DNA of 37,302 nt from positions 1 to 37,302 of the forward strand of contig JAJUFM010000015.1 of NCBI GenBank assembly GCA_029265995.1, in the 5' to 3' direction. Source of the DNA: Rhodospirillaceae bacterium (GTDB lineage Bacteria > Pseudomonadota > Alphaproteobacteria > Kiloniellales > DSM-21159). A model generated the notes under the pieces. It did no database searches. It was not told where the DNA came from and was given only the letters and a program-made list of their open reading frames with translations. Of this stretch, positions 25,564 through 35,393 are shown piece by piece. The position numbers were made by a program, and so were the translations under genes. Every line of letters starts with the position of its first letter. The stretch's first letter is position 1.

Positions 25564-25694
25564 TGTCTCCCTCCAGGAAGCAATATCTTTAGCAGGCGTC
25601 GCCTTGTCGCCACTTACCCCTGCCCCGACGTCATGGGGAACGGGCGGGGCCGCTTCTGGTTGTCCGAGCGAGAAGAAATTGTAGGAGCTTATTC

Positions 25695-26294
25695 ATGGCA
25701 AAGGTACTGGTGCTCTACTATTCCATGTATGGTCATATAGAGACGATGGCGAACGCCGTGGCCGAAGGTGCGCGCTCAGTGGAGGGTAGCGAAGTAGCTG
25801 TCAAGCGTGTGCCTGAGACCATGTCACGTGACGTGCTCGAGCAGATCGGCGCCAAGTTGGACCAGTCCGCTCCGGTTGCGACAGTTGAAGAGCTGCCTCA
25901 GTGGGACGCGATCATCCTTGGCGTGCCCACCCGTTTCGGTAACATGCCGGGTCAGATGCGGACTTTCTGGGATCAGACCGGCAAGCACTGGGCCGAGGGC
26001 GCACTGGTGGGCAAGGTCGGCAGCGTCTTTACCTCTACCGCGACAGGCGGTGGCAGCGAGACTACCATCACCACGACCTGGACCAACCTGGCCCACCACG
26101 GGATGGTCATTGTTGGCTTGCCCTACGCAGCCCAGGAACTGCTCGACATTTCGGAGGTCCGCGCAGGCAGCCCCTATGGCGCCGCCACAATGGCTGGGCC
26201 GGACGGCAGTCGCCAGCCGTCGGAGAAGGAACTGAGCCTGGCCCGCTTCCAGGGGAAGCATGTCGCGGAGATCGCCAAGAAGCTGCACGGCTGA
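25695..26294 (+). CDS. wrbA: NAD(P)H:quinone oxidoreductase WrbA
   Basis: A 199-residue flavodoxin-like enzyme. The FMN-binding loop is [10 protein letters not shown] (10-19). The WrbA-type [21 protein letters not shown] (about 76-96) and [11 protein letters not shown] (about 113-123) follow. WrbA reduces quinones by two electrons and protects against oxidative stress. A GGAG lies ahead of the ATG. It is followed by a pyridoxamine-oxidase-fold gene 106 bases on. Confidence 0.97.
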
Positions 26295-26341
26295 CGCCGG
26301 ATAGGGGTGAAATGCCGTCTCTCACCGCCAAGGTTTAAAGG

Positions 26342-26396
26342 AACTCCTGTGGCCGCCCCGGCATTGCTTGGGCAATTCTCCCCAACCACAGGAGTT
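26342..26396 (+). promoter_or_regulatory. hairpin that sequesters the ribosome binding site of the 26401 gene
   Basis: AACTCCTGTGG (26342-26352) and CCACAGGAGTT (26386-26396) are perfect complements. The right arm contains AGGAG, the Shine-Dalgarno site of the ATG at 26401. The 33-base loop has a second hairpin, ATTGC/GCAAT (26363-26367 with 26372-26376). If transcribed, the ribosome site would be buried, so translation could be controlled by temperature, a ligand or an RNA/protein. A DNA operator is the alternative. Confidence 0.55.
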
Positions 26397-26400
26397 ACTG

Positions 26401-26874
26401 ATGGCAGAGGATCGCGATCGCGCTTGGGACCTGATGGAGAGCATCGGCTTCTGCATGCTGTCATCTCTGGATGGCCAGGACATTCGTTCTCGACCGATGA
26501 TGGCCTATGCCGACAGGAGAGAGCATGCGATCTACTTCCTGACCGACGTTCACAGCCACAAGGACGACGAGATCGACCGTAACCCCCACGTCAATCTCGC
26601 GTTCGCCGACACCGGCGGCCAGAAGTACCTTTCCGTGACGGGGAGGGCAGTGGTCAGCGACGATCGCGAGAAGATCCGGGAACTCTGGGCAACCCCAGCG
26701 AAGGCCTGGTGGGACAATCCTGATGATCCTTCCATACGGGTCTTGAAGGTCGTGCCGCAGGATGCCCAATACTGGGAGGGCGCCGGCAGCCTTGCCAGCT
26801 ACATCAAGCTGATCGCCGCCGCCGTCTCCGACAGCCGTCCCGACATGGGCAAGAACGTGAAGGTGGAGCTCTAG
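26401..26874 (+). CDS. pyridoxamine 5'-phosphate oxidase-fold (general stress protein 26-like) protein
   Basis: A 157-residue protein of the split-barrel flavin-binding superfamily. Conserved parts are IGFCMLSSLDGQDIRSRPM (about 15-33), AIYFLTDVHSHKDDEIDRNPHVNLAF (43-68) and the C-terminal W-x-N-PDDPSIRVLKVVPQDAQYWE (about 104-128), as in GsiB/YdaG-like stress proteins. Cofactor (FMN, F420 or haem) cannot be told from sequence. The ATG at 26401 is used, following AGGAG six bases away; an upstream ATG at 26368 lies in the hairpin loop and lacks a site. The stop codon is the first TAG of a repeat element. Confidence 0.88.
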   Translation: MAEDRDRAWDLMESIGFCMLSSLDGQDIRSRPMMAYADRREHAIYFLTDVHSHKDDEIDRNPHVNLAFADTGGQKYLSVTGRAVVSDDREKIRELWATPAKAWWDNPDDPSIRVLKVVPQDAQYWEGAGSLASYIKLIAAAVSDSRPDMGKNVKVEL

Positions 26875-27004
26875 AGCAAATCGCACCAAATCAGGTTCAC
26901 GAGTGACCCGATTTGGTACGTGAATCTGTTCTATCTATTTGATGTAAACCGGATCGCGTTTGACTGAACCTCATAGTGGTTCAGATCAGACGCAATCCGG
27001 TCTA
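26872..27004 (+). repeat. two-hairpin dispersed repeat, copy 1
   Basis: A ~133-base element made of two imperfect palindromes. The first (about 26873-26933) has ACCAAATC (26885-26892) pairing with GATTTGGT (26910-26917). The second (26948-27001) has ACCGGAT/ATCCGGT and CTGAACC/GGTTCAG. They are joined by ATCTATTTGATGTA. It is the reverse complement of 35259-35393 with few differences. REP/MITE-like intergenic repeats of this kind are widespread in alphaproteobacteria. Confidence 0.9.
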
Positions 27005-27030
27005 GCCTTACCTGAGGCTTGAAGTGCGGA

Positions 27031-34631: not shown

Positions 34632-35261
34632 ATGTCTCAGCTCGTCCTATTGCGCCACGGTCAAAGCGAATGGAACGCGGAAAACCGCTTCACAGGCTTC
34701 GTCGATGTCGGCTTGACCGATCTGGGCCGAGAGGAAGCACGCAAGGGAGGACGGGCGCTGGCCGGCATGCGCTTTGACCGGGCGTTTTCCTCCACCCTGC
34801 GCCGGGCGATCGAAACCACCGAAATTGCCTTGGCCGAAAGTGGAAGTAACGAACATCTTCGGCGGGATGGCGGCTGGAACATCACCTGCCATGACGATCT
34901 GCGAGAGCGCGATTACGGCGAGCTTGCGGGCCTGAACAAAGCGGAAACGGCGGAGAAGTTCGGGGCGGAGCAGGTGCACATCTGGCGGCGCAGCTACGAC
35001 GTCGCCCCGCCGGGAGGCGAGAGCCTGAAGGACGTGGTTTCGCGTGCCGGCCGCTACTACGAGGCAGAGATCGCCCCCTGTCTTGCTCAGGGGAAAGCGG
35101 TGCTCGTAGGTGCCCACGGCAATACGGTAAGGGCCTTGCTCGTCGCGCTGGGCTGCCATGATCCCGCCGAAATCCCGAACGTCGAGATCCCGACGGGCGT
35201 GCCCATGCTGTTCGAGGTCACTGACGGAAAGCCAGGAACTTACCGATTTCTGCAGGACTAG
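34632..35261 (+). CDS. gpmA: 2,3-bisphosphoglycerate-dependent phosphoglycerate mutase
   Basis: A 209-residue histidine phosphatase-fold enzyme. H9 in LLRHGQSEWN is the phosphorylated residue; H162 (GAHGNTVRAL) is the second catalytic histidine. RERDYGELAGLNK and PPGGESLKD are conserved. It interconverts 3- and 2-phosphoglycerate in glycolysis and gluconeogenesis. A GGAGG lies ten bases before the ATG; an upstream frame to 34404 has no such support. The length is somewhat shorter than E. coli GpmA (250), as usual in alphaproteobacteria. Its stop codon TAG is the first base triplet of repeat copy 2. Confidence 0.94.
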   Translation: MSQLVLLRHGQSEWNAENRFTGFVDVGLTDLGREEARKGGRALAGMRFDRAFSSTLRRAIETTEIALAESGSNEHLRRDGGWNITCHDDLRERDYGELAGLNKAETAEKFGAEQVHIWRRSYDVAPPGGESLKDVVSRAGRYYEAEIAPCLAQGKAVLVGAHGNTVRALLVALGCHDPAEIPNVEIPTGVPMLFEVTDGKPGTYRFLQD

Positions 35262-35393
35262 ACCGGATCGCGTTTGATTTGAACCACTTTGGGGTTCAGT
35301 CACACGCGTGAATCCGGTCTACATCAAATAGATAGAGCAGATTCACGCACCAAATCGGATCACTTCGTGAATCTGATTTGGCGCGATCTGCTC
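35259..35393 (-). repeat. two-hairpin dispersed repeat, copy 2 (inverted)
   Basis: The same ~135-base element as 26872-27004 in reverse orientation. Its ACCGGAT/ATCCGGT hairpin comes first, then the linker TACATCAAATAGAT, then the ACCAAATC/GATTTGGC hairpin. With copy 1 it flanks about 8.2 kb carrying aacS to gpmA. Confidence 0.9.

Follow-up and report, generated by a model that had tools for sequence, protein, structure and literature searches.

A predicted EcfG-type stress promoter overlapping the anti-Shine–Dalgarno arm of a PNPOx-like gene, and possible silencing of wrbA read-through RNA

In the 37,302-nucleotide stretch of DNA analysed here (the window), the Shine–Dalgarno (SD) sequence of a PNPOx-like flavin-fold gene lies in one arm of a perfect inverted repeat, and the other arm falls within a predicted EcfG-type stress promoter. 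The explanation that we favour, with moderate confidence, is that the -35 element and spacer of this promoter double as an anti-SD arm, which would silence RNA reading through from the upstream gene wrbA. The features on which this proposal is built are collected in Table 1.

Table 1. Positions of the features discussed in the text, numbered from the first letter of the window
Feature	Position	Strand	Remarks
wrbA EcfG-type promoter-like site, GGAAC-N16-GGTT	25637..25661	+	58 nt before the wrbA ATG
wrbA, NAD(P)H:quinone oxidoreductase type IV	25695..26294	+	NF002999/TIGR01755 above cut-off; source of any read-through RNA
GGAAC, predicted -35 element	26340..26344	+	its last three bases are the first three of the left arm
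Left arm (anti-SD), AACTCCTGTGG	26342..26352	+	within the -35/spacer of the predicted promoter
CATT, predicted -10 element	26362..26365	+	N17 after GGAAC
Expected transcription start region	26371..26374	+	inside the hairpin loop; derived from the usual ECF -10-to-start spacing
Right arm, CCACAGGAGTT, with SD AGGAG (26390-26394)	26386..26396	+
PNPOx-like flavin-fold gene (general stress protein 26 type), 157 aa	26401..26874	+	Pyrid_ox_like PF16242, E 2.2e-35; rhizobial homologs 58-67% identical

A perfect inverted repeat covers the Shine–Dalgarno sequence

The inverted repeat covering the SD is real. Specifically, AACTCCTGTGG and CCACAGGAGTT are exact reverse complements over 11 bp, with 33 nt between them, and the AGGAG contained in the right arm is followed by six bases (TTACTG) and by the ATG at 26401-26403. 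Both the perfect hairpin and the distance of the SD from the start codon had been described in this way in the original prediction, together with a second hairpin in the loop, which RNA folding also returns as a small inner one. Folding of the region 26335-26420 gave a minimum free energy of -33.6 kcal/mol (z = -2.98); like all the structural statements made in this work, this is an energy-model prediction.

The exact pattern was found in none of 100 shuffles of the whole window. Perfect 11-bp inverted repeats with a spacer of 3-60 nt were counted 10 times in the window versus 0.95 in shuffles (overlapping counts), so that the SD-hiding repeat is not unique in this respect. By keeping the right arm as given and shuffling the 85 nt upstream, an exact left partner emerged in 2 of 20,000 shuffles, about 1e-4 per gene, which extrapolates to a chance expectation of a few tenths of one case per genome of ~3000 genes. 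The occurrence of such an arrangement once per genome is not far from chance and could be meaningless.

This estimate speaks for chance complementarity, which is the main rival to the explanation proposed above: the promoter would be of the EcfG type, and its spacer would match the SD by accident and without consequence for regulation, for instance if wrbA transcripts hardly ever extend into the gene. We consider this quite possible, though less probable than the explanation proposed above. It has to account, however, for 11 perfect pairs centred on the SD, when perfect SD stems reach no more than 8 bp in 122 distinct stress-promoter leaders of 13 other genomes, and for the prediction that any read-through RNA would fold into the stem on energy grounds.

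The downstream gene belongs to a stress-linked family and follows wrbA

The gene behind the hairpin had been proposed to have a flavin fold and to belong to a stress-linked family. Both assignments agree with its match to Pyrid_ox_like (PF16242, E 2e-35), a family annotated as general stress protein 26. Its best homologs are rhizobial, with up to 67% identity, and the plasmid collection, searched for closer ones, gave a best match of about 66% identity, again rhizobial. No close homolog was found in the relatives of the same genus, family and order, with no match at E 1e-30 in the order-level relatives. The gene is absent from the one same-genus genome examined, which has the same arrangement of tsaB and wrbA as the window but another gene behind wrbA.

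Directly after the stop codon of the PNPOx-like gene starts one copy of an intergenic, dispersed repeat, about 135 nt long and rich in inverted repeats. The two copies in the window, at 26875-27015 and 35258-35392, are 87% identical and in opposite orientations, and a third copy is located on another contig (L084, 142-274).

On the other side, wrbA lies on the same strand, 106 bp upstream of the PNPOx-like gene, and no terminator-like or sigma-70-like site was found between wrbA and the hairpin. The presence of a stable stem 3' of wrbA would fit a transcription terminator or a 3' stabiliser of this gene. The stem, however, lacks a T-run, being followed by ACTGATGG, no terminator-like site was found, and the stem holds the SD of the next gene; we therefore regard this reading as extremely improbable. 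An intrinsic terminator in particular, as defined by a GC-rich stem plus a T-run, was rejected on the ACTGATGG that comes after the stem.

A predicted EcfG-type promoter overlaps the left arm

The sequence GGAAC-N17-CATT (26340-26365) begins 61 nt before the ATG of the PNPOx-like gene, and it combines a GGAAC -35 element, a spacing within the N16-17 range and an accepted -10 variant of EcfG-type promoters. When the whole window was searched for GGAAC-N16/17-(C/G)(A/G)TT, just two sites were retrieved, one before wrbA and the other before the PNPOx-like gene, and the distances from the end of the -10 element to the ATG are 33 and 35 nt, respectively. A similar site, GGAAC-N16-GATT, precedes by 55 nt the wrbA gene of the same-genus genome. 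The strict form GGAAC-N16/17-CGTT is not enriched genome-wide (29 hits versus 74 for the reversed control); most of the strict-consensus hits examined fall inside open frames, and just two precede a plausible start.

The -10 element predicted for the PNPOx-like gene is CATT, not CGTT. CATT is a natural EcfG -10 box, weaker than CGTT in vitro (PMC7083833), and examples of EcfG promoters carrying it have been described (PMC6599016). EcfG is the sigma factor of the general stress response in Alphaproteobacteria and belongs to the extracytoplasmic-function (ECF) class. Moreover, genes for a 'general stress protein' are EcfG targets in both Sphingomonas melonis (PMC6599016) and Sphingopyxis granuli (PMC7083833). 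Compared with the EcfG promoters of Alphaproteobacteria, the site shares the GGAAC -35 element, the 16-17 nt spacing, a -10 of the CGTT/CATT/GGTT type, the position close before the ATG and a general stress protein gene as target (PMC6599016, PMC7083833). It is set apart by its CATT -10, by a spacer with a long anti-SD and by a genome in which no NepR or PhyR was found.

The position of the motif is shared by homologous genes. Of the 60 homologs, 55 carry GGAAC 40-70 nt ahead of the ATG (versus 53 of 1434 control windows), and 52 carry the full GGAAC-N15/18-(C/G)GTT with its first base 48-65 nt ahead of the start codon, a range that includes the 61 nt of the window. Three class-level relatives (L105-L107, 52-54% identity) also have the stress-promoter motif in front of the gene. 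All together, these data indicate that the PNPOx-like gene is likely to have its own EcfG-type stress promoter, with the left arm in the -35/spacer. We infer from the sequence that the promoter is used in this organism, with the predicted start site and sigma dependence.

An EcfG-like sigma is encoded in this genome on contig C112 (L102:1803-2432). Among solved structures, its best relative is 5uxx (E 5.5e-38), Bartonella RpoE bound to NepR; with the specific NCBIfam sigma models that it matches best, its score does not reach the cut-off. The sequence GGAAC-N17-CGTC lies 42 nt before its own ATG. In searches of the genome, NepR gave no hit at E 0.01 and PhyR none above cut-off, so that this sigma is not part of a recognisable canonical circuit; it is possibly a stress sigma acting outside it. 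By eye, its gene is near predicted PRC-barrel-like, ExoD-like and DUF883-like genes. The same contig encodes a short sigma-like protein of 149 aa (L102:3822-4271) with weak matches to ECF models, which may represent either a sigma that has degenerated or a PhyR-like decoy lacking a receiver.

The hairpin is absent from homologous leaders

The hairpin was found in none of the 60 homologous leaders, nor in the three class-level relatives. The original prediction had proposed paired (compensatory) changes in relatives as a check; the pairing is kept in no homolog, and covariation thus gives no evidence for selection on the hairpin. The same observation is in favour of a coincidental match between spacer and SD.

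The comparison also bears on the idea, raised at the outset, of a DNA operator, in which a regulator would bind the two arms flanking the -10 element and the start of the promoter. The arms are indeed placed on either side of the predicted -10/start, 44 bp apart in register, that is about four helical turns. The 11-mer, however, is present just once elsewhere in the genome, within an open reading frame of L068, and no such repeat is seen in the homologs. With the arm neither repeated as an operator nor conserved, we judge this alternative very unlikely.

Predicted folding with and without the left arm

The energy model clearly separates the two RNAs that could carry the gene. At 37 °C, the predicted mean openness of the SD is 0.0002 in the wrbA read-through RNA and 0.56-0.58 in an RNA starting at 26371 or 26373; the latter values match those of other stress leaders (0.588 in 122). 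At ECF promoters, transcription usually starts a few bases past the -10 element. The start is thus expected inside the loop, and an mRNA made from this promoter would not include the left arm. The original prediction had instead placed this arm in the leader of the gene, and had named a transcription start beyond it as an observation that would speak against the switch; such a start is what we predict here, since the arm coincides with the -35/spacer.

These considerations weigh on a translational switch acting in cis within the leader of the gene's own mRNA, namely an RNA thermometer or a riboswitch, which would fit the classic SD-sequestering geometry and the stress-linked gene. Beyond the location of the left arm upstream of the predicted start, folding between 20 and 75 °C left the SD still closed at 75 °C (openness just 0.014-0.025, with 0.014 in the read-through RNA), no Rfam match was obtained at either gathering or permissive thresholds, and the pairing is not conserved, all of which makes such a switch highly improbable. 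Specifically, an RNA thermometer was rejected on the SD helix that remains closed at 75 °C in the model, and a riboswitch on the lack of a conserved aptamer or leader in relatives and of any Rfam match. Of the translational switch first proposed, the occlusion of the SD therefore stands, while the thermometer and the riboswitch do not; a translational role on read-through RNA is possible.

Shine–Dalgarno occlusion in other stress leaders

In 33 distinct rhizobial PNPOx-like leaders, folded as RNA from GGAAC, the SD is less open than in shuffled sequences (0.28 versus 0.43, p = 1e-4), its pairing partner being in most cases the -10/start region. No SD-hiding effect against shuffles was seen in 32 control genes. 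When 122 distinct EcfG-type leaders from 13 genomes were analysed, the effect was tiny (0.331 versus 0.363 shuffled, p = 0.03), with no excess of SD stems over shuffles, so that the trend of the orthologs is not general. The lack of a stem excess is a further point for a coincidence. What is seen in the orthologs may be incidental to a pyrimidine-rich -10/discriminator (start) region. It is unlikely that alphaproteobacterial PNPOx-like stress genes recurrently hide an anti-SD in EcfG promoter DNA, with only the stress-initiated RNA being translated; if true, general-stress genes located behind other genes would be locked twice, at the promoter and at translation.

Discussion

The arms, the promoter-like motif, its position with respect to homologs and the absence of a terminator-like site can all be read from the DNA itself, and they are compatible with the following mechanism. 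The gene's own stress promoter, GGAAC-N17-CATT, would start transcription at about 26371-26374. The left arm would be promoter DNA upstream of the start, and the gene's own mRNA, devoid of it, would have an open SD. Both arms would be present only in RNA entering from wrbA, in which the 11-bp stem would bury the SD, and translation of the gene would be confined to times when its own stress promoter is active. Silencing of read-through RNA by the stem is plausible on the folding predictions; that read-through occurs, and that the stem has been selected for silencing, we infer.

A similar architecture is known in phage T4, where a hairpin occludes the SD of genes e, soc, 49 and I-TevI (and of mobE and segB) in long transcripts initiated upstream, and in these alone; the late promoter of the gene itself is contained in the 5'-arm DNA, and the RNA made from it lacks the arm and is translated (PMC3014915, PMC2988022). 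In Bacillus subtilis, a large hairpin has been proposed to block translation of sigG from RNA reading through from the upstream operon, and it cannot form in the RNA started at the gene's own alternative-sigma promoter (PMC5942855). The hairpin described here shares with these T4 gene e and sigG type hairpins an SD predicted to be buried in upstream-initiated RNA (probability of being open 0.0002 at 37 °C) and, by the position of the motif, a promoter of its own in the 5' arm, whose RNA is predicted to be open (0.56-0.58). In contrast to the T4 leaders, it belongs to a gene on a bacterial chromosome, the ECF stress promoter of which is predicted from sequence; sigG differs in its stem of 20+ pairs, in being a sigma-factor gene and in belonging to Firmicute sporulation.

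In conclusion, the homologs indicate that one arm of the repeat is probably promoter DNA, and the case offers an example of how a striking SD hairpin can mislead. If the arrangement is used by this bacterium, the stress promoter would give a translatable mRNA, while the read-through RNA would stay silent.
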